A stretch of DNA of 64,000 nucleotides from assembly GCA_031271975.1 (NCBI GenBank), contig JAISUR010000037.1:186001-250000 (forward strand), in the 5' to 3' direction. Below the pieces are notes generated by a model that was not told the origin of the DNA, did no database searches, and was given only the letters and a program-made list of their open reading frames with translations. Below, piece after piece: positions 48,680 to 58,984 of the stretch. Position 1 is the stretch's first letter; each line of letters starts with the position of its first letter. Origin of the DNA: Propionibacteriaceae bacterium. Its GTDB lineage: Bacteria > Actinomycetota > Actinomycetes > Propionibacteriales > Propionibacteriaceae. The translations under genes were made by a program, and so were the position numbers.

Positions 48680-49423
48680 TCAGATGCGCCGCAAGACGGC
48701 GACGACCTTGCCCAAGATAGACGACTCGTTGCCGTCTATCGGGTCGTAGTCGGGATTCTGCGGCAGCAGCCACACTTGGCCCGGTGTCTTCTTGAGCGTC
48801 TTGACGGTGGCCTCCTCGCCGAGCAGCGCGGCGACGATCTCGCCGTTGTTGGCGTCGCGCTGCTGGCGGATGACCACATAGTCGCCGTCGCAAATGGCGG
48901 CGTCCTTCATGGAGTCGCCGCGGACTTCCAGCATGAACAGCGTGCCGTCGCCGACGATTTGCTTCGGCAGCGCGAAAACATCTTCGACATGCTCCTCGGC
49001 CAGGATCGGCCCGCCCGCGGCGATACGGCCCACGACCGGGACCGCGAGCGCCCCGCTGGCCCCCGGAAGCTCGAGTTCGCGGTCGTCGCGCATGGACGCC
49101 GGCAGGTGTACCACCATGGCCCGGGGCTGGTGGGGATTGCGCTTGATGAAGCCTTTCTTCTCCAGCAGCTTGAGCTGGTAGGCGGCGGACGACGGGGAAG
49201 CCAGGCCGCCGAATTGGGCGATTTCGCGGATGCTGGGCGGATAGCCGCGCGTGTCCAGCATGTCCTTGATGCCGAGCAGGATGGCGCGCTGCCGGTAGCT
49301 GAGGCCGTCTTCGTCTTCGGCTTCACTGGTGATCGCGGATTGCCGCACCCCGAGCGAGGCGGCCAACGTGGCTTTGGAAGGGTGGCCGGGCCGCGGCTGC
49401 GTCTGCTTCTTGATTGTCGCCAT
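48680..49423 (-). CDS. lexA: SOS repressor LexA
   Basis: A 247-residue repressor of the DNA-damage response. Winged HTH near 42-105 ([24 protein letters not shown]); self-cleavage site Ala136-Gly137; catalytic Ser171 (RGDSM) and Lys208 (TVKTL). About 35 extra N-terminal residues precede the HTH. TACCGT lies 6 nt before the ATG, so the mRNA is probably leaderless; a LexA box overlaps the -35, giving autoregulation. Confidence 0.96.
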
Positions 49424-49429
49424 GGTTTA

Positions 49430-49470
49430 ACGGTACGGCTCCAGGCGCAAAGATTCAAACATTTGTTCGA
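49430..49470 (-). promoter_or_regulatory. lexA promoter with overlapping LexA (SOS) box
   Basis: On the minus strand: -35 TTGAAT (49458-49453), 17-nt spacer, -10 TACCGT (49435-49430), start codon 6 nt on. The LexA box TCAAAC-ATTT-GTTCGA (49455-49470) matches the actinobacterial TCGAAC-N4-GTTCGA at 11 of 12 positions and covers the -35. Confidence 0.85.
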
Positions 49471-49575: not shown

Positions 49576-50085
49576 ATGGCGAAGGAAAAGGCGCGCGGCA
49601 TATCTTTTGACGAGTATGTCGCCACGCGTTCTGTCGCGTTGCAGCGCTTCGCCTTTCTCGTCACCGGCGATCTGGAGGATGCCCAGGACGCGGTGCAGGA
49701 GGCCTTGTTGGGCGCCTATCCGCGTTGGAATTCGGTGGTGTCGTGGGGCGATCCCACGGCGTATCTGAAGCGAAGCATCGTCAACTCCCATATCTCCAGG
49801 TGGCGCAAGTTCGGAAGAGAGGCCGTTTCGGTGGAAGCCGAGTGGGCCGACAAGCCGGCTCCCGATCAGTTCCAAGCGGTCCTGGACCGGGACGAAGCCG
49901 CGCGCCTGTTCGAGGGATTGCCCCTCAAACAGCGGGTGGCCATAGTGATGCGCTGCTATGAGGGGGCCGACTATGCCGACATCGCCGAGGTATGCCGATG
50001 CAGCAAGTCCAACGCGCGCACGCTGGTGGCGCGGGCGCTGGCGGCGTTGCGGGCCAAGCTGACCCAAGGAGCCCATGATGACTGA
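49576..50085 (+). CDS. ECF sigma factor, SigE-like family (copy 2)
   Basis: A 169-residue ECF sigma factor related to the one at 3995-4477: region 2 (FAFLVTGDLEDAQDAVQEALL), RSIVNSHISRWRKFGRE, and region 4 with the HTH near ADYADIAEVCRCSKSNARTL. Paired with a propeller membrane protein whose gene starts before this stop. GAGGG lies about 10 nt before the ATG; the frame is open further upstream. Divergent from lexA. Confidence 0.9.
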   Translation: MAKEKARGISFDEYVATRSVALQRFAFLVTGDLEDAQDAVQEALLGAYPRWNSVVSWGDPTAYLKRSIVNSHISRWRKFGREAVSVEAEWADKPAPDQFQAVLDRDEAARLFEGLPLKQRVAIVMRCYEGADYADIAEVCRCSKSNARTLVARALAALRAKLTQGAHDD

Positions 50086-51898
50086 CTCTCCCGACGCGCG
50101 CGCCGAGCGCGCCTTCCACGACTACCTGACCGCGCAGGCCGAATCCACCCGGATCGAGCCCTTGGAGTTGGAGCCGCCCACCAAGCGCGGCGGCTGGCAG
50201 CGCTGGGCGGTGGGCGGTTTGGCCGCGGCCGCATCTGTCGTGGTCGCTGTGACCTTGATCGTGCCCAACCTGCCGCTCGGCGCGGACCTGCGCGGTGTTC
50301 CCGAACCGCTGGGTGACGGCACGTGGACGAAAACCGCCCCCATTCCGCTCAGCGGCCGCTATGGCTCCGCGACGGCCTGGGTGGACGGGAAGTTCTACAT
50401 CCTCGGCGGCGTCCTGCCCTGCGGCAGCCAGCCGAGTGCGATGGAGGCCATGTGCCGGAGCATCTTTCCGCAAAGCGGCGACTGGACGTCCGACGGCGCC
50501 AGCTATGACCCGGTGGCTGACAAGTGGGAACAGATCGCGGACGCGCCCTACTCGGTTTCCGGCACGGAAACCGCCGTGGTTGGCGAAACCATTTGGGTGC
50601 TTGGAGCCGCAGACGTGCGTTCAGTGGTGGATCCAGACGAGGTGGATACCGCTGGCCAGCACTTGATGGCGTACAACACGGCCACCGGCGAGTGGTCAGC
50701 CAAGACTGATCCGATTTCCGCCGAGAGGCTGGTTTCCGTGCCTGGGGGGATGTTGGCGCTGCGGGCTGGTGAGGACGCCATCCGCGCCACGGGGGCCGGT
50801 GGGTGCCTGGAACAGTCGGGTTGCCTGGCCACCGCATATCTTGAAACTGACACCTACAGCGGGGTATTCCAGGTTTCGGGCCAGACGTATTTCAGTGCGA
50901 CAGCTCTATACGCGGCATACGTCGCGGACAATCTTGTCTACTTGGTCCGGGAGGGTTATGGAACCTGGGATTCCTCCAGTGATGCGAGCGCCGGGCGAAA
51001 TCAGCAGAGTCAAGGGGAGGCAGACGCCTGGCTGCTTGATCTCGACACCCGTATCGCGTCGGCCAGGTCCCCGGTCACGGAGTACGGCGACCGCCCGCCG
51101 GTTTCCTACGATTCGGCGGTGTATCTGGCTGAGCAGTATGGCTACTATACGTCCGCGCTGTCTTCCTCTTTGAACACTTGGATCTATGACCCAATCCAGG
51201 AATCGTTGCGCGCCATTGTCGGCCCGCTTCCTGTCGCAGACGGCTACGCGACCGCATGGGGCGGCATGAGCTACGAAGACGAGTGGCCCTACAACCGGGC
51301 CCCGTTGGTGGTCGGCGACTACCTGGAGTCGATGGGCAACTTCTACCATGTGCCTTCGAACAAGTGGTACGCGGTGCCGGCAGCGCCCAACAGGGGGCTG
51401 GAGGTGCTGGCGGCGTCTGATAACTCGGTGCTGTCTTGTTTCGGGGATTGGCAGAACGCGGCCTGGCAGGGCCATGGCGGAGTCCGCAACTGCTACCTGC
51501 TCTACGTGCCCGCGCTGGAGGAGATCCCCGACGCGCTCGGCGTGGAACCAGGCGAGGACGAGCAAGACACCGCCTCGCCTGCCGACACGGCGGAACCGGC
51601 CACCGGGGACCGGGAGGCTCCGGATTCCGATCCGCTCGCTCCTCGCGTGGCCGTCTCCCGGGGCGCGGCCTACGACGGGGCTTTCGGCGACGTCTGCGAC
51701 GACTCCTGCGCCTACATCCATGTGAAGACGGGCGGCATGTCGAACAGCTACACCTGCGCTTTGTCGTTCGACGGCGAACTGCAAGAGAGTTGGACGGCTG
51801 AAGGGGATTGGTCCGAGGACTTGACCGCCGTGCTGGGCATTCCGGGCACCGAAGTCGAAGTCGTCTGCGACGGCGTGTCCGGCACGTACGTCTGGTAG
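50078..51898 (+). CDS. Single-pass membrane protein with kelch-like beta-propeller, probable anti-sigma partner (copy 2)
   Basis: A 606-residue protein: short cytoplasmic part with AERAFHDYL (compare AEAAFREFL in copy 1), transmembrane helix about 43-63, then an outer kelch-like propeller (RYGSATAWVDGKFYILGG; YDPVADKWEQIADAPYSV). A Pro/Glu/Asp linker (about 490-520) leads to a Cys-containing C-terminal domain (CDDSCAYIHVKTGG ... TCALSFDG) absent from copy 1. ATG at 50078 has AAGGAG 6 nt upstream and overlaps the sigma gene by 8 nt. The anti-sigma role is inferred from coupling. Confidence 0.65.
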   Translation: MTDSPDARAERAFHDYLTAQAESTRIEPLELEPPTKRGGWQRWAVGGLAAAASVVVAVTLIVPNLPLGADLRGVPEPLGDGTWTKTAPIPLSGRYGSATAWVDGKFYILGGVLPCGSQPSAMEAMCRSIFPQSGDWTSDGASYDPVADKWEQIADAPYSVSGTETAVVGETIWVLGAADVRSVVDPDEVDTAGQHLMAYNTATGEWSAKTDPISAERLVSVPGGMLALRAGEDAIRATGAGGCLEQSGCLATAYLETDTYSGVFQVSGQTYFSATALYAAYVADNLVYLVREGYGTWDSSSDASAGRNQQSQGEADAWLLDLDTRIASARSPVTEYGDRPPVSYDSAVYLAEQYGYYTSALSSSLNTWIYDPIQESLRAIVGPLPVADGYATAWGGMSYEDEWPYNRAPLVVGDYLESMGNFYHVPSNKWYAVPAAPNRGLEVLAASDNSVLSCFGDWQNAAWQGHGGVRNCYLLYVPALEEIPDALGVEPGEDEQDTASPADTAEPATGDREAPDSDPLAPRVAVSRGAAYDGAFGDVCDDSCAYIHVKTGGMSNSYTCALSFDGELQESWTAEGDWSEDLTAVLGIPGTEVEVVCDGVSGTYVW

Positions 51899-51913
51899 GG
51901 CTCAGCGCACAAC

Positions 51914-53173
51914 TCAGCGTTCAGCCAGTTGAGCCTGCCCTTCGGCTGGGTTACCCGCCACGTCGGGGTAGCCAACGAGTTGGTCGGGTGCGCGGAAGCG
52001 GACTTTGTCCAAATAGCTGACCAAGTCGCCGCGGTTCGTGGCCTCCACCGTCAGCGAGTAATGCGAGTCGCCCCACAGCAGCGTCAACTCGTAGCGCTTG
52101 TCGTCGTTCTTGGAGTTGTTCTCCCAGGCCGTACCCACCTCAGTGGCGCCGATAGAGAAGTCGTAGACCGCCCGCACGTCCGAGCTGAACTTCTCGTCGT
52201 AGTGCTTGTCGGCGGCCGCGGTGTCGTCCCAGTAGCGGTAGCGGATCAGGCCGTCCCCGCCGTCGAAAGTGCACTCCCAAGTCTCGGTGGTGGCCCGGTA
52301 GCCGATCCAGGCGCACCTGCCCTCTTCGAGCTGGGTGACCAGCGAAGGGTAGATGTAGGAAAGCCCGGCCGACGGCGCCGAGAGCTTCTTGTCCTTACCC
52401 GGTTTGGCGGTCAAGTCGGCGCAGTCGGACAGTGATTCCACCACTTTGTCATTCCAGCAAAGGTACGTCGTCGGCGGTTCCGGCTCGGGTTCGGGAGCCG
52501 CGCTCGTGGGCTCGGTGGGGGCGGTGGAGACGTCCGGTGGCGGCTCGGACACCGGTTCGTCGGTCACCGTGGGGCTGGCTTGTTGGGAGTTCATGAAGGT
52601 GATGGCCGCGAAAGCGCCCCCGCCGCCCAAGACCGCGAACACGGCGATGATCGCTATGACCAGCGGCAGCCGGGACTTCTTCCGCTCCTGCTGCGCCGGC
52701 TGGTATGGCCCGGGCGCGTAGGGCTGGGGCCCGGTGGCGTATCCGCCGGCCGCATATCCCGCGTTGTAGGCCTCTGATTGGGAGCCGGCGGGTTGCCCGT
52801 AGGACGCCGCCGGGGGTGGCGGCGGCGGAGATCCCTGTGGCCAGGTGGTCTGCAGTTGGGTGGTCGGCAGCGACGACTGGCCGGCTCCGGGCGGAGCCCA
52901 CATGGATGCCTGGGCCGGCGGCGGCGGTGGTGCGGGCTCGTCGCGGAATATTCCGGTCTGGAATTGCGGCTGGGGGGTCGTGTCTTCGGGAGCGGGCGGG
53001 GGCGGCGGGGTACTGACCATGGTTTCGGCGGCGGGCTCGGTCCAATCGTCTTGGGGTGGATTCCAATCCACCGTGTCGTCCGCGACCGGCGTCGGCTGGG
53101 CCAACGCGAACCCGCACTTCGGGCAGAAACGCGCCACGGCGGGAATCTGCGCGCCACAATTCGGGCAAGTCAT
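51914..53173 (-). CDS. Zinc-ribbon, proline-rich, single-pass membrane protein
   Basis: A 419-residue protein of unknown function. N-terminal zinc ribbon (Cys3, Cys6, Cys17, Cys20), a long Pro/Gln-rich cytoplasmic linker (30-165), transmembrane helix about 168-192, an outer Pro/Glu/Thr spacer, then an extracellular domain with Cys239 and Cys251 (YLCWNDKVVESLSDCADL). TACGAT lies 7 nt before the ATG. Divergent from the LRV/propeller gene 89 bases away, so the two may share regulation. Confidence 0.65.
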   Translation of the reverse strand: MTCPNCGAQIPAVARFCPKCGFALAQPTPVADDTVDWNPPQDDWTEPAAETMVSTPPPPPAPEDTTPQPQFQTGIFRDEPAPPPPPAQASMWAPPGAGQSSLPTTQLQTTWPQGSPPPPPPAASYGQPAGSQSEAYNAGYAAGGYATGPQPYAPGPYQPAQQERKKSRLPLVIAIIAVFAVLGGGGAFAAITFMNSQQASPTVTDEPVSEPPPDVSTAPTEPTSAAPEPEPEPPTTYLCWNDKVVESLSDCADLTAKPGKDKKLSAPSAGLSYIYPSLVTQLEEGRCAWIGYRATTETWECTFDGGDGLIRYRYWDDTAAADKHYDEKFSSDVRAVYDFSIGATEVGTAWENNSKNDDKRYELTLLWGDSHYSLTVEATNRGDLVSYLDKVRFRAPDQLVGYPDVAGNPAEGQAQLAER

Positions 53174-53262
53174 GGCTGCAATCGTAGCGGCTACGGCGGC
53201 CCAGGCCAGTGCGGCCCGATTTGTGGCTACCATTGAGCAGGAAATTCTTGGACGGGGACCCT

Positions 53263-55008
53263 ATGGCGGACTTCACCGACTACAACTACGCGGCATGGGC
53301 CGTTTCCAACCCCAATACCCCCGCTGCCGCCCTGGCCGACATCGCGCGGCTGCAGCCCGGGCTGCGCGCGGCCGTCGCCGGGCACCCGGCCGCGTATCCC
53401 GGGTTGTTGGACTGGCTGGCCGGTTTGGGCGACCCGCAGGTGACGCAAGCGGTCAACCAGGCGCGCGGACGGGCACCGGTCGGCTATGCCCCACCGGGCG
53501 CCCCGGCGTACCCCGTCGCGCAGCCTGGGTCCCCGCAGCCGGCCCACCCGGTAGGGCCGAAGCCGAAACGCGGGCGGTTCATCGCAATCGCGGCCGGCGT
53601 GCTGGCCATCGCGCTGATTGCCGTTGGGATCATCTTCGTGCCCACTTTGCTGGGCGGGCCGCGCACCGGCGGCGGCAGTTCCGGGGGCAACCCCGTTGGC
53701 GGCGGGCTATTCCCGGCCGACGGGCCCGCTTGGAAAGACGGCGCGCAAACGACCTTTTCGGTACCACTGGAATCCATCTACTCCGAAGAAGACATCACGC
53801 TGGTGGAAGCCAAAGACTATGGCGACTTTCTGTTCCTGCGTTTCGGCGAGTACGGCGACGGCGGCGCATATGGGGGCGCCTGGGTGGCGGTCGACACCAC
53901 CGGCGCGGTGTTGTGGCAAGCCCCTGGCGAGCAGTTGTGCGCCGACGCGTTGTACAACGGCTTCGTGGCCTGCGTGGCACAGCTCGCCGGTGAAGGCGAC
54001 TGGGGCTGGGAGTACTGGGGGACGCTCAACCTCTACCGCGCCGACGGGCAGACCGAACTCTCACAGCGCCTGGAGTACTACCCGACCGAAATCCTGCCGT
54101 ACTCGGGCGACTTGGTCGTCATCGGATCGGATACCGCTTACCGTGACGAGGAATTCACCTCACAACCGCATTTCGCCCGCTTCGGCCAAGACGGCCGCGA
54201 AGTGTGGGACACGCGCGTTTCGGCTGTGTGCAACCCGTCGGAGTCAGATCCGTACTCGCAGACCGTCCAGGTGGAGTCGGCGTGGATTTCGACTTTCAAT
54301 TCATGTGTGACCGTGGCGTTCAACCCGGACGGCGGAGAGATTTCCGACCAGATGATCTCCGGCGGATTGACCGTCCACGGCGACGTGCTGACCGGCTATG
54401 CGCGAGACTGCACCGATAGCTACGATCCTTGCCCGGCCGAAGTGGACACCAAGGACACGTTGACTTTGCCCAGCGGCAGGCAAATGCGGTTCTTGCCCAA
54501 CGACGACTGGGACAACGGCACTTTCGACGGCACGGCTTGGTACGCGTCGCTGGAATACACCGAGGACAGTTGCTACGCCATGAATGTGCGGCTTGCCGCC
54601 AGCGGCGCGACGGTGTGGAAGGTGGCGGACGGCCTGGCGGACTACCGTATCGCGCTGGGCTCCCACCTGGTGACCATCGTCGACGACCGGCTGTCGAGCT
54701 ACGACCTGGAAGCGGACAAAGAACTGTGGAGCGTCCATTTGCAGGACATAAAGGCGTCCAAGTGCCAGTCGCATCTGTTCATCCTCGACGATGAGACCAT
54801 CCTGGTCGCCGACGAGGAGGGATTGCAGGGATTCGCCCTGCAGGACGGACAGCAGGTCTGGACCAAGGTCAGGCCCTTCCCTTCCGTCGCGTGGAGTTCG
54901 GATGACTACGACACCAACGTCTACTGGCAACCCCTGCCGGGCGGCAACCGCCTCCTGGCGACCATCGGCCTGGGTGATCGGGCCGCGCTGGTCGAGCCGC
55001 TGAAGTAG
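53263..55008 (+). CDS. LRV-domain membrane protein with extracellular PQQ-like beta-propeller
   Basis: A 581-residue protein: cytoplasmic leucine-rich-repeat-variant-like helical domain (5-68; AAWAVSNPNTPAAALADIA, then LRAAVAGHPAAYPGLLDWLA), Pro/Ala-rich linker, transmembrane helix about 106-128, then an outer propeller with WD/PQQ-type strands (GAVLWQAPGEQ, REVWDTRVS, DKELWSVHLQD, GQQVWTKV). No enzyme motif. Start ATG with GGGGA upstream. Role unknown; the layout suggests an envelope sensor. Confidence 0.65.
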   Translation: MADFTDYNYAAWAVSNPNTPAAALADIARLQPGLRAAVAGHPAAYPGLLDWLAGLGDPQVTQAVNQARGRAPVGYAPPGAPAYPVAQPGSPQPAHPVGPKPKRGRFIAIAAGVLAIALIAVGIIFVPTLLGGPRTGGGSSGGNPVGGGLFPADGPAWKDGAQTTFSVPLESIYSEEDITLVEAKDYGDFLFLRFGEYGDGGAYGGAWVAVDTTGAVLWQAPGEQLCADALYNGFVACVAQLAGEGDWGWEYWGTLNLYRADGQTELSQRLEYYPTEILPYSGDLVVIGSDTAYRDEEFTSQPHFARFGQDGREVWDTRVSAVCNPSESDPYSQTVQVESAWISTFNSCVTVAFNPDGGEISDQMISGGLTVHGDVLTGYARDCTDSYDPCPAEVDTKDTLTLPSGRQMRFLPNDDWDNGTFDGTAWYASLEYTEDSCYAMNVRLAASGATVWKVADGLADYRIALGSHLVTIVDDRLSSYDLEADKELWSVHLQDIKASKCQSHLFILDDETILVADEEGLQGFALQDGQQVWTKVRPFPSVAWSSDDYDTNVYWQPLPGGNRLLATIGLGDRAALVEPLK

Positions 55009-55024
55009 CCCGGGGTCTCGCCAG

Positions 55025-55060
55025 CGCGGAAACCTGGCCCTTCCACCGCCGCGATTTTTT
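55025..55060 (+). terminator. Probable terminator after the LRV/propeller gene
   Basis: CGCGG (55025-55029) pairs with CCGCG (55049-55053); the 19-nt loop can form GGAA/TTCC pairs. A run of six T follows at 55055-55060. Confidence 0.5.
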
Positions 55061-55124
55061 GTCCTAGGCGGGTGCTTGACTAATTGGCATGAGGCAAACA
55101 TGCGAAACACCAGTACGAAAGCCC

Positions 55125-55175
55125 TTGCGCGCGGCGGTAGTTTCGAGTATGGTCATGTTTCGTACATATGTTCTA
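55125..55175 (+). promoter_or_regulatory. Promoter with LexA (SOS) box at the transcription start
   Basis: -35 TTGCGC (55125-55130), 17-nt spacer, -10 TATGGT (55148-55153). TCGTAC-ATAT-GTTCTA (55160-55175) matches the LexA consensus at 10 of 12 fixed positions and covers the predicted start, so LexA should repress the gene that follows. Confidence 0.7.
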
Positions 55176-55196
55176 CTGAGCCGGAGGGAGCTGGTC

Positions 55197-55511
55197 ATGG
55201 GCACGTTGGGAACGATCGGGAGCAAGTCCACGAGGCGGCAGGCCGTCCAGTTCGGCGGGCCGGTCGCAAAGCCGCGTGCCCTCGCCGCTCCCGGCGGCCG
55301 GCCCAGGGGAGTGCGGCCGCCGTCGGCGCGGGCCTTGGCGGGCCAGCCGCGCCCGGCGCCCGCCCTCCAGTTGACCCGTCGCGGATTGGCGGTAGTGGTC
55401 GGGTTTTTCGCGGCGCTGTTCGCCGTCGCCGCGGTGGTCGTGGTGGGCAGCTTCCTGTCGGTGTCGGACGCGCCGCTGACGGCCGCCGAGGTTTCTGCGC
55501 TCATTCGCTGA
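55197..55511 (+). CDS. Small SOS-controlled membrane protein (DivS/Rv2719c position, no LysM domain)
   Basis: A 104-residue protein: a basic Pro/Arg-rich cytoplasmic part, LTRRG, one transmembrane helix (about 64-86) and a very short outer tail ending SVSDAPLTAAEVSALIR. Its place before nrdR and its LexA box match the SOS cell-division inhibitors of Corynebacterium (DivS) and Mycobacterium (Rv2719c), but their outer LysM part is missing. GGGAG lies 6 nt before the ATG. Division arrest under DNA damage is inferred. Confidence 0.65.
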   Translation: MGTLGTIGSKSTRRQAVQFGGPVAKPRALAAPGGRPRGVRPPSARALAGQPRPAPALQLTRRGLAVVVGFFAALFAVAAVVVVGSFLSVSDAPLTAAEVSALIR

Positions 55512-55522
55512 GTAATTCGCGA

Positions 55523-55537
55523 GACACGCCGCGTGTC
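55523..55537. promoter_or_regulatory. Perfect 7-1-7 palindrome before nrdR
   Basis: GACACGC-C-GCGTGTC lies 12 bases after the SOS gene stop and 118 before nrdR. Too tight for a normal terminator loop and without a T run; it may be an operator. Confidence 0.35.
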
Positions 55538-55574
55538 GGTTGCGTGGCCGATATCGTAGCCCTAGTCTTCTTGC

Positions 55575-55604
55575 TACTACATCTTGTAGTTACAAGCTTG
55601 TGGT
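55575..55604. promoter_or_regulatory. Overlapping palindromes upstream of nrdR, possible NrdR boxes
   Basis: Three nested symmetries: CTACA-TCT-TGTAG (55577-55589), CTTGTA-GT-TACAAG (55583-55596) and ACAAGCTTGT (55592-55601). NrdR usually binds paired palindromes at ribonucleotide reductase promoters and often at its own. Match to the 16-bp NrdR consensus is only partial. Confidence 0.4.
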
Positions 55605-55654
55605 TTGTCTACCAGTAGTGGTTGGTGGGAATCCGATAACGGAAAGGAGTTGTT

Positions 55655-56113
55655 ATGCATTGCCCGTTCTGCAAGCACAACGACACCCGCGTGCTGGATT
55701 CCCGCGTCGCTGAGGACGGCACGAGCATCAGAAGGCGCCGGCTCTGCCCGGCGTGCGAACGGCGGTTCACGACCTTGGAGCAGATGCAACTGGTCGTGGT
55801 GAAGCGCTCCGGCGCGGTGGAGCCGTTCTCGCGGGAGAAAGTGATCGCCGGGGTGGCCAAGGCCTGCAAGGGGCGCCCGGTCACCGAAGGCGATCTGGCT
55901 CTGTTGGGGCAACAGGTGGAAGAAGCCCTGCGGGCCGCCGGCCTGGCTGAGATTCCGGCCCACGATGTCGGTGTGGCAGTTCTGGGACCGCTCAGCCAGC
56001 TCGATCCCGTGGCGTATTTACGCTTCGCGAGCGTTTACAAGCAATACAACTGCGTGGAGGATTTCGAGGCTGAGATCTCGCAGCTCCGCGCGCAAACGGT
56101 GGCCGTCGGCTAG
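55655..56113 (+). CDS. nrdR: Ribonucleotide reductase transcriptional repressor NrdR
   Basis: A 152-residue repressor: zinc ribbon with Cys3, Cys6, Cys31, Cys34 (CPFC ... CPAC) binding DNA, then an ATP-cone (about 49-139; [19 protein letters not shown]) that senses ATP/dATP. AAGGAG gives a strong ribosome site. nrdJ follows after 30 bases, so it should control the reductase in the same operon. Confidence 0.96.
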
Positions 56114-56143: not shown

Positions 56144-58984
56144 ATGACTGAGACGATGCCTGTGCGGGGTGTGGCCGCATGCGACAAGTCTGGCAAGGGG
56201 CTCACTATCGAGCGCGTATTCACTACGGCCGGCGTGCACCCCTACGAGGAAATCACCTGGGAGCGGCGCGACATCACGCAAACGAACTGGAAGACGGGCG
56301 AAGTCATCTTCGAGCAGCGCGACGTCGAGTTTCCGGATTTCTGGAGCCTGAACGCGTCCACCATCGTCACCACTAAGTACTTCCGCGGCGCGCTGGGCAC
56401 CGATGCCCGGGAAGGCTCGCTGCGGACGCTGGTCGACCGGGTTGTCGAGAAGTACCGCCAAGCCGGTGAGGAGCACGGGTACTTCGCGACGAGCGAGGAC
56501 GCCGAGATCTTCGCCCACGAGCTGACCTGGATGCTGGTCCACCAGTTCTTCTCCTTCAACTCGCCGGTGTGGTTCAACGTGGGCACGCCGTCGCCACAGC
56601 AGGTGTCCGCCTGCTTCATCTTGTCGGTGGACGATTCGATGGAGTCGATCCTGAACTGGTACAAGGAGGAGGGATTCATCTTCAAGGGCGGCTCGGGCGC
56701 GGGCCTCAATCTGTCGCGCATCCGCTCTTCGAAAGAACTGCTGTCCTCGGGCGGCACCGCGTCGGGCCCGGTTTCCTTCATGCGTGGCGCCGACGCGACG
56801 GCGGGCACTATCAAGTCCGGGGGCGCCACGCGGCGCGCGGCCAAGATGGTCGTGCTCGACGTGGACCATCCCGACATCGAGGAATTCGTGGAGACGAAGG
56901 CGCGCGAGGAGGACAAGATCCGGGCACTGCGGGATGCCGGCTTCGACATGGACCTGGGCGGCAAGGACATCGTCTCGGTGCAGTATCAGAACGCCAACAA
57001 CTCGGTGCGCGTCTCGGACAAGTTCATGCGCGCGGTCGAGGCGGGGGAGCCGTTCGACCTGCTGGCACGCATGGACGGGCATGTCATCGAGACGGTTGAC
57101 GCCCGCGGGCTGTTCCGCAAGATCGCCGAAGCCGCCTGGGAGTGCGCGGACCCGGGTCTGCAATACGACGACACCATCAACGACTGGCACACCAACCCCG
57201 AGTCGGGCCGCATCAACGCGTCCAATCCCTGCTCGGAGTACATGAGCCTGGACAACTCCTCGTGCAACCTCGCCTCGCTCAACTTGCTGAAGTTCTTGCG
57301 GGAGGACGGCGTCTTCGACTCGCAGTTGTTCGTCAAAGCCGTCGAGTTGGTCATCACAGCCATGGACATCTCGATCTGCTTCGCGGACTTCCCGACTCAG
57401 TCCATCGCGGCCACCACCGTTGACTTCCGCCAACTCGGCATCGGCTACGCCAACCTGGGCGCGTTGCTGATGGCCGTGGGCCGCGGCTACGACACGGACT
57501 CCGGCCGGGCTTTGGCGGCGGCGATCACGTCCTTGATGACGGGCGCGGCCTACCGGCGTTCCGCGGAATTGGCGGCCGTCGTCGGCACTTACAACGGTTA
57601 TCCCCGCAACGCCGCCGGGCACCAGCGCGTGATGCGCAAGCACCAGGCGGCCACCGACGACCTGCGGGATTGGGACGAACTCGACGGGGCGGTCCGGCGC
57701 GCCGCCGTGGAGCAGTGGGAGGACGTCGTGAAGCTGGGTGCGGTAAACGGCTTCCGAAACGCGCAGGCCTCGGTGCTGGCGCCCACGGGCACCATCGGCT
57801 TCATGATGGACTGCGACACGACAGGTATCGAGCCGGACTTCTCGCTGGTCAAGTTCAAGAAGCTGGTCGGTGGCTCGTCGATGCAGATTGTGAATCAGAC
57901 AATTCCGCGGGCGCTGCGGCGCTTGGGCTATGCCGAGGAGACGATAGAGGCCATCGTCGCCTACATCGCCGAACATGGCCATGTGGTAGACGCGCCGGGG
58001 CTCAAGATCGAGCACTACGAGATTTTCGACACCGCCATGGGCCGCCGCTCCATCAAGCCGATGGGCCACGTGCGGATGATGGCGGCGGTGCAGCCGTTCA
58101 TTTCGGGCGCCATCTCGAAGACGGTCAACCTGCCCGAATCCGCCACCGTGGAGGACATCGCGGACGTCTACATGCAGGGCTGGAAGCTGGGCGTGAAGGC
58201 GCTGGCGGTCTACCGCGACAACTGCAAGGTGGGCCAGCCGCTGTCCGACAAGAAGAAGGACGACAACGCCCAAGCGGCCGAACCGGAAGTCCGCGTCGAA
58301 TACCGGCCCAAGCGCAAGCGCCTGCCGAAGTCCCGCATCAGCCGCACCACATCTTTCTCGGTGGCCGGCGCGGAAGGCTACATGACCTCTGGGCAGTACG
58401 ACGATGGCGCGCTCGGTGAAGTGTTCTTGAAGCTCGGCAAGCAGGGTTCGACGCTGGCCGGCGTCATGGACGCGTTCTCCATCGCGGTGTCCATCGGCCT
58501 GCAATACGGCGTGCCGCTGGGCACCTTCGCCCAAAAGTTCACCAACTTGAAGTTCGAGCCGGCGGGCATGACGGACGACCCGGACGTGCGCATGGCGCAG
58601 TCGATCATGGACTACATCTTCCGGCGCCTGGCGTTGGATTATCTGCCCTTCGACGAGCGTGCCGAGTTGGGCATCTACACGGCCGCGGAACGCAAGCGCT
58701 ATGTGGAAACTGGCTCATATCTGCCAGAAGAGGAGTCCGAGTTGATCGAGTCCGAGTCGCTCAAGAACGACGCGGCCGACGCGCTGCATCTCGACGGCCC
58801 CGGCCCGATCCAGCCGGCTCTGGTGGAGCCGACCGGCAAGGTCACTTCGACCGCTGACGTGCTCTCCAATCTGACGGGAATGAAGGTCGACGCGCCGCTT
58901 TGCATGACGTGCGGCACGAAGATGCGGCCGTCCGGGTCCTGCTACGCGTGCGAAGGGTGCGGCTCCACGAGCGGCTGCAGCTGA
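56144..58984 (+). CDS. nrdJ: Vitamin B12-dependent (class II) ribonucleoside-diphosphate reductase
   Basis: A 946-residue enzyme that reduces ribonucleotides using an adenosylcobalamin-generated thiyl radical. Redox pair Cys157 (QVSACFIL) and Cys374 (NSSCNLASLN); radical Cys363 (NPCSEYMS). The C-terminal Cys-rich tail (CMTCGTKMRPSGSCYACEGC) accepts electrons from thioredoxin. No B12 riboswitch was recognised upstream. Convergent with rsgA. Confidence 0.95.
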   Translation: MTETMPVRGVAACDKSGKGLTIERVFTTAGVHPYEEITWERRDITQTNWKTGEVIFEQRDVEFPDFWSLNASTIVTTKYFRGALGTDAREGSLRTLVDRVVEKYRQAGEEHGYFATSEDAEIFAHELTWMLVHQFFSFNSPVWFNVGTPSPQQVSACFILSVDDSMESILNWYKEEGFIFKGGSGAGLNLSRIRSSKELLSSGGTASGPVSFMRGADATAGTIKSGGATRRAAKMVVLDVDHPDIEEFVETKAREEDKIRALRDAGFDMDLGGKDIVSVQYQNANNSVRVSDKFMRAVEAGEPFDLLARMDGHVIETVDARGLFRKIAEAAWECADPGLQYDDTINDWHTNPESGRINASNPCSEYMSLDNSSCNLASLNLLKFLREDGVFDSQLFVKAVELVITAMDISICFADFPTQSIAATTVDFRQLGIGYANLGALLMAVGRGYDTDSGRALAAAITSLMTGAAYRRSAELAAVVGTYNGYPRNAAGHQRVMRKHQAATDDLRDWDELDGAVRRAAVEQWEDVVKLGAVNGFRNAQASVLAPTGTIGFMMDCDTTGIEPDFSLVKFKKLVGGSSMQIVNQTIPRALRRLGYAEETIEAIVAYIAEHGHVVDAPGLKIEHYEIFDTAMGRRSIKPMGHVRMMAAVQPFISGAISKTVNLPESATVEDIADVYMQGWKLGVKALAVYRDNCKVGQPLSDKKKDDNAQAAEPEVRVEYRPKRKRLPKSRISRTTSFSVAGAEGYMTSGQYDDGALGEVFLKLGKQGSTLAGVMDAFSIAVSIGLQYGVPLGTFAQKFTNLKFEPAGMTDDPDVRMAQSIMDYIFRRLALDYLPFDERAELGIYTAAERKRYVETGSYLPEEESELIESESLKNDAADALHLDGPGPIQPALVEPTGKVTSTADVLSNLTGMKVDAPLCMTCGTKMRPSGSCYACEGCGSTSGCS

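Follow-up and report, generated by a model that had tools for sequence, protein, structure and literature searches.

The stretch of DNA analysed here (the window, 64,000 nucleotides of a Propionibacteriaceae genome) contains a small gene that lies between lexA and the nrdR–nrdJ pair (Table 1). Its product, P0001, is a small bitopic membrane protein and a candidate SOS division inhibitor. The translation of lexA shows the segments AAGG, GDSM, and VKTLKK, which we take to be its self-cleavage features. The lexA and P0001 genes are 5.8 kb apart, with four genes between them (49576-55008) that encode an ECF-type sigma factor, a Kelch-like protein, a zinc-ribbon protein on the other strand, and an LRV/PQQ protein. 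The sigma-factor gene is divergent from lexA and adjoins the lexA operator. Downstream, 143 bp separate the P0001 gene from nrdR. This gap holds the palindrome ACTACATCTTGTAGT, which resembles an NrdR box. No terminator-like site was found between the two genes.

Table 1. Features of the lexA to nrdJ region, in window coordinates
Feature	Positions	Strand	Basis
lexA	48680..49423	-	TIGR00498, E 1.6e-65; translation
lexA operator, TCGAACAAATGTTTGA (on - strand)	49455..49470	-	top-scoring site of the window, 24.0 bits
Probable decayed first LexA box, GCGAAACACCAGTACGA	55102..55118	+	half-sites displaced by one base on inspection by eye
-35 TTGCGC (55125-55130) and -10 TATGGT (55148-55153), 17-nt spacer	55125..55153	+	sequence, weak
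LexA box, TCGTACATATGTTCTA	55160..55175	+	lies across the expected start of transcription, 37 nt ahead of the ATG
Gene of P0001 (104 aa), candidate SOS division inhibitor	55197..55511	+	ORF, translation, orthologues upstream of nrdR
LTRRG, cytoplasmic membrane-edge motif (residues 59-63)	55371..55385	+	conservation in alignment A2
Predicted transmembrane helix of P0001 (residues 61-88)	55377..55460	+	AlphaFold2; pLDDT block means 89-99 over residues 61-90
FLSVSDAP, outer membrane-edge motif (residues 86-93)	55452..55475	+	conservation in alignment A2
Palindromic site before nrdR, ACTACATCTTGTAGT	55576..55590	.	no match in 100 shuffles
nrdR	55655..56113	+	Pfam NrdR zinc ribbon and ATP-cone; TIGR00244
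nrdJ, B12-dependent class II ribonucleotide reductase	56144..58984	+	Pfam PF02867, PF08471

The frame encodes 104 residues, as the initial annotation had claimed, and its start ATG is preceded by GGAGG at 55183-55187, a good Shine-Dalgarno spacing. A longer frame of 140 residues from the ATG at 55089 was rejected because the LexA box and promoter would fall inside it and because the starts of relatives lie approximately 30 nt past the beginning of the box. The first 60 residues of P0001 are basic and proline-rich, and the 16-residue tail that follows the helix contains a short helix in the AlphaFold2 model. Before the helix there are 12 K/R and no D/E residues, as compared to one K/R and two D/E after it, a distribution that predicts an N-in, C-out topology. 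P0001 is thus predicted to have one membrane helix and an external C-terminus. Pfam returned no match, and nothing exceeded the cut-off among curated models; NCBIfam NF010723 (cell division suppressor YneA) was not matched. A phage origin was also considered and was rejected, there being no phage match.

The actinobacterial LexA consensus is TCGAAC-N4-GTTCGA. The site upstream of P0001, TCGTACATATGTTCTA, agrees with it at 10 of 12 positions and has one exact copy in the 2.70 Mb genome. Sites with two or fewer mismatches to the consensus number 249 genome-wide versus 131 in a reversed control. With so many chance sites, the consensus count was rejected as evidence for the box, and a weight matrix was used instead, trained on 45 boxes from 23 other genomes of the genus with the window genome left out. 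By this matrix, the box at 55160 scores 20.7 bits and ranks second among all 16-mers of the window, between the lexA operator and a third-best site of 14.9 bits. No site in 30 first-order Markov simulations of 64 kb reached 20.7 bits. In relatives, the box begins 26-43 nt upstream of the start codon. The LexA-like box on the start site therefore stands, both by rank and by its conserved position, and SOS control of P0001, proposed in the initial annotation, is well supported by these sequence features. The genome contains lexA, recA, and ftsW, and a weaker LexA box lies approximately 140 bp before recA.

Two or more good LexA boxes are found in 21 of 25 other promoters of the genus, with outer pairs 41-57 bp apart. 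In the window, the corresponding candidate, GCGAAACACCAGTACGA, sits 57-58 bp before the box at 55160, and a one-base slip has apparently destroyed this first box in the window's species. The full promoter described initially is only partly borne out. Both hexamers and the 17-nt spacer are present, but they are weak, matching 7 of 12 consensus letters, and a sigma-70 scan called no promoter there. Among 26 promoters of the genus, 11, including that of the window, have a TTG-16/18-TA pattern at the corresponding position.

To place P0001 among its relatives, the lexA–nrdR intervals of 53 further genomes of the family and seven of the same order were compared. Automated calling gave a one-helix protein with a LexA box in 48 of 54 intervals of the family, that of the window included. 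The intervals that gave no such call end at contig ends (G016, G038, G043), come from genomes with no LexA (G032, G055), or, in the case of G013, encode a similar protein without a good LexA box. Two doubtful proteins (G041, G050) were dropped and that of G016, before which no box is visible, was included after inspection by eye, giving a family set of 47. In G041 (L071), the only LexA-like protein is a diverged one, and a good box is missing. Pfam detects LysM in none of the 47 same-locus proteins, which come from Propionicimonas, Micropruina, Propioniciclava, Enemella, and others. Among the neighbouring families of the order, LysM is present in all six aligned outgroup proteins; with the frame of G059, which lacks LysM and was left out of the alignment, the count becomes six of seven proteins called. 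Propionicimonas belongs to Nocardioidaceae in the NCBI taxonomy, and the record titles of many of its MAGs name Propionibacteriaceae.

The same locus was compared in 80 named records. A boxed protein was called in 47 and none in the other 33, which are mainly from Streptomyces. Three proteins (L139, L145, L160) were dropped before the Pfam scan, and of these L145 has a LysM frame by a home-made profile. Pfam found LysM in eight of the 44 scanned proteins; a profile derived from the outgroup proteins gave nine. The profile-positive carriers are from Aeromicrobium, a Propionibacteriales MAG, Nonomuraea, Williamsia, and Gordonia. All proteins called in records of Propionicimonas, Micropruina, Propioniciclava, Enemella, Arachnia, and Tessaracoccus are without LysM. 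Outside the family, LysM is missing from proteins of Rhodococcus (L182, L184) and Segniliparus (L187). Because these proteins and the published DivS of C. glutamicum, as described in the available text, all lack the domain, repeated loss of LysM within Actinomycetota is probable. NF010723 matches nine of the 44 named-record proteins (E up to 0.1; best 5.4e-10). The family and LysM-bearing outgroup profiles align by hhalign with a probability of 90.5 and an E of 1.3e-6 over 43 columns, which span the membrane helix together with its LTxRG edge. This profile match, the same locus, and the same regulation support common descent with the LysM-bearing proteins. A literature search, largely of papers outside subscription, returned nothing describing the protein in Propionibacteriaceae.

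The presence of LysM at the same place in neighbouring families raises the question of whether P0001 is what truncation or a frameshift has left of a LysM-bearing ChiZ/YneA-like protein. Using the outgroup-built LysM profile, no trace of the domain was found in six frames of 55501-55700 or in three frames of 54901-55700. The decayed or frameshifted downstream frame that the initial annotation had considered was thus not found, and its description of a protein without LysM agrees with the Pfam result. The whole genome, which is 99.86% complete, gives no LysM match; 10 of 14 control genomes have one. Substitution rates were obtained for nine ortholog pairs of the genus (NG86). The dN/dS ratio is approximately 0.12-0.5, with dN of 0.06-0.39 and dS of 0.18-3.2; dN is smaller than dS wherever dS is usable, pairs that include the window gene being near saturation and one pair having no usable dS. 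As judged from these substitutions, the P0001 gene is under purifying selection. A remnant is hardly credible given that dN is below dS in every usable pair, that no trace of LysM persists downstream or in the genome, and that the domain is missing from the entire family set. On these comparisons, P0001 is no truncated relic, and the absence of LysM characterizes the bacterial family as a whole and is no peculiarity of this protein.

What the family conserves was examined in an alignment of 19 diverse members (alignment A2). T60, R62, A65, and F86 are invariant; G63, L87, and P93 are each kept in 18 of 19 sequences, and V83 is likewise nearly invariant. Only N, D, or E occurs at position 91. 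The inner LTxRG and outer FLxVSxxP edges are kept, and the central part of the helix is variable. The LTxRG edge is also found in the LysM-bearing outgroup proteins. No conserved face was detected along the helix (permutation p 0.73), which weakly disfavors a specific helix–helix partner. The initial annotation suggested that the protein might work through its membrane helix alone. Conservation instead marks both edges of the helix, whereas its core varies. Between 5 and 43 residues follow the best helix window across the 47 family members, and proteins of some other genera (G030, G033, G034, G035, G047, G049) have only 5-11. These short tails count against a need for the outer tail, although the conserved outer FLxVSxxP does not suggest a helix acting alone. 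In four loci of the genus (L037, L042, L045, and L048, from G006, G011, G014, and G017), a shared C-terminal LPxEG-like pattern replaces FLxVSxxP and the hydrophobic tail. This type of ending possibly represents a different outer signal.

The gene order around P0001 was compared in the same way. The lexA–nrdR interval of most genus members measures approximately 0.7-2 kb and contains the P0001 orthologue; it reaches 3-4 kb in some relatives. The orthologue is close to lexA in most relatives, and for most of the genus nrdR is the next gene downstream. Several other genera have the boxed gene beside lexA, with further genes ahead of nrdR. The initial assignment to the place of DivS/Rv2719c therefore holds in that P0001 lies between lexA and nrdR, as in relatives, but not in the sense of adjacency, as lexA is 5.8 kb away. 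In six loci from other genera of the family (L063, L064, L070, L072, L074, L076), a membrane-protein gene lies immediately ahead of nrdR, between it and the boxed gene. Its product carries a CPxxxxTGxxCPxCGxTR-like motif and is presumably DUF2752-like.

Because no terminator-like site was found around ACTACATCTTGTAGT, SOS read-through into nrdR–nrdJ is possible. The promoter could even serve mainly for such read-through, with damage raising nrdR–nrdJ transcription and P0001 being a minor passenger, and the short gap and the gene's place as the immediate upstream neighbour of nrdR in most of the genus would fit this explanation. We consider it improbable, however, since nrdR has its own NrdR-box-like palindrome, P0001 is under purifying selection, and several genera place the boxed gene by lexA with other genes before nrdR. 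The link between LexA and the box can also be followed in two complete genomes of one genus (g4), G032 (L062) and G055 (L085), in which two models detect no LexA. The corresponding interval contains no LexA box, and nrdR is still preceded by a one-helix membrane protein, but one with another sequence. By these models, LexA and its box are lost together in both genomes.

Our preferred reading is that P0001 is an SOS-induced division inhibitor of the DivS/ChiZ/YneA/SosA kind, in a LysM-less form that is standard for its family; we regard this as fairly likely. The start-site LexA box, the basic N side, the short acidic C side, and the conserved helix edges all point in this direction. The protein is probably made only upon DNA damage, most likely to pause cell division. 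The reading is limited by a box that matches at only 10 of 12 positions and by the decay of the second box in the window's species. P0001 could instead serve the damage response in a different way under LexA control, for instance by reducing membrane energy, an activity of some small SOS membrane proteins, or by changing how the envelope is synthesized. No curated family matches P0001, and its division role is backed by regulation, topology, and place only. Moreover, YneA without LysM is inactive in B. subtilis according to the available text of its description (PMC13396833), so loss of the domain could mean a changed job. We nevertheless regard a different job as unlikely. P0001 shares its place and helix-edge homology with relatives that bear LysM, the YneA model matches some of these relatives, and the outer edge of P0001 is conserved. 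In addition, DivS and ChiZ, the characterized proteins of the same place, inhibit division, as stated in the available part of a review (PMC3989709). A role for P0001 in division therefore remains the likely one.

These comparisons allow us to propose how such an inhibitor would act. LexA would repress the P0001 gene, and DNA damage would release it from repression. The protein would then insert N-in/C-out, and its helix, together with the inner LTxRG and outer FLxVSxxP edges, would bind FtsW, perhaps together with FtsI, in the septal synthase complex. Septum synthesis would stop until LexA returns, and a membrane protease would remove P0001 via its hydrophobic C-terminal tail. The target is probably the FtsW/FtsI complex; the genome has two FtsW-like genes, one of them above the cut-off. 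We read the active part as the helix plus a short outer segment, not the helix alone, on the basis of the edge conservation, the SosA layout, the binding of FtsW by YneA and its need for LysM, and the dispensability of LysM in ChiZ, as far as these are described in the available texts. More tentatively, and with the balance somewhat against it, the family's LysM-less proteins may be a natural deletion series in which a minimal unit of helix, LTxRG, and FLxVSxxP blocks FtsW directly, unlike YneA. In the sources available, SOS division inhibitors differ in their need for a wall-binding domain: LysM is required in YneA, reported as dispensable in ChiZ, and absent from DivS and SosA. Throughout the family, the damage switch is retained along with the helix and a short outer motif, and never LysM. 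Its many short natural variants are a means to locate the minimal part that stops the septum.

The gene for ChiZ (Rv2719c) of M. tuberculosis, we assume, lies between lexA and nrdR, like those of the P0001 family. ChiZ has one helix and a basic N-terminal side, as does P0001, and differs in having an outer LysM domain. This domain seems unnecessary for function in the review's available portion (PMC3989709). The initial annotation assumed that DivS carries LysM as well; this premise is contradicted by the accessible text of the SosA paper, in which C. glutamicum DivS is named as an exception that lacks the domain (PMC6851548). The absence of LysM from P0001 is therefore not new for its kind, as LysM-less SOS inhibitors, DivS and also SosA, are already known elsewhere. 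As is predicted for P0001, DivS (cgR_1759/cg2113) is LexA-controlled and has one helix and an outer C-terminus, and it likewise has no LysM in the available descriptions (PMC6851548, PMC3989709). Its gene is beside lexA in these sources, a position close to that of the P0001 orthologue in most relatives. DivS has been demonstrated to suppress division, and P0001 is likened to it by these features rather than by direct sequence comparison.

SosA of S. aureus resembles P0001 in being LexA-linked and small, with one helix and no LysM (PMC6851548). As reported in the portion available, SosA blocks division without LysM, requires conserved membrane-proximal outer residues, including the acidic D44, and uses its far C-terminus for turnover (PMC6851548). 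The layout of the P0001 family is similar, with a conserved membrane-proximal outer segment and N, D, or E at position 91. SosA, at 77 residues, has a longer outer part than P0001 and comes from another phylum, and no common ancestry of the two is known. YneA of B. subtilis is an SOS-induced one-helix division inhibitor, as is proposed for P0001, and its helix binds TM7 of FtsW in the available text (PMC13396833). LysM is present and required in YneA, whereas P0001 has no LysM and does not match NF010723.
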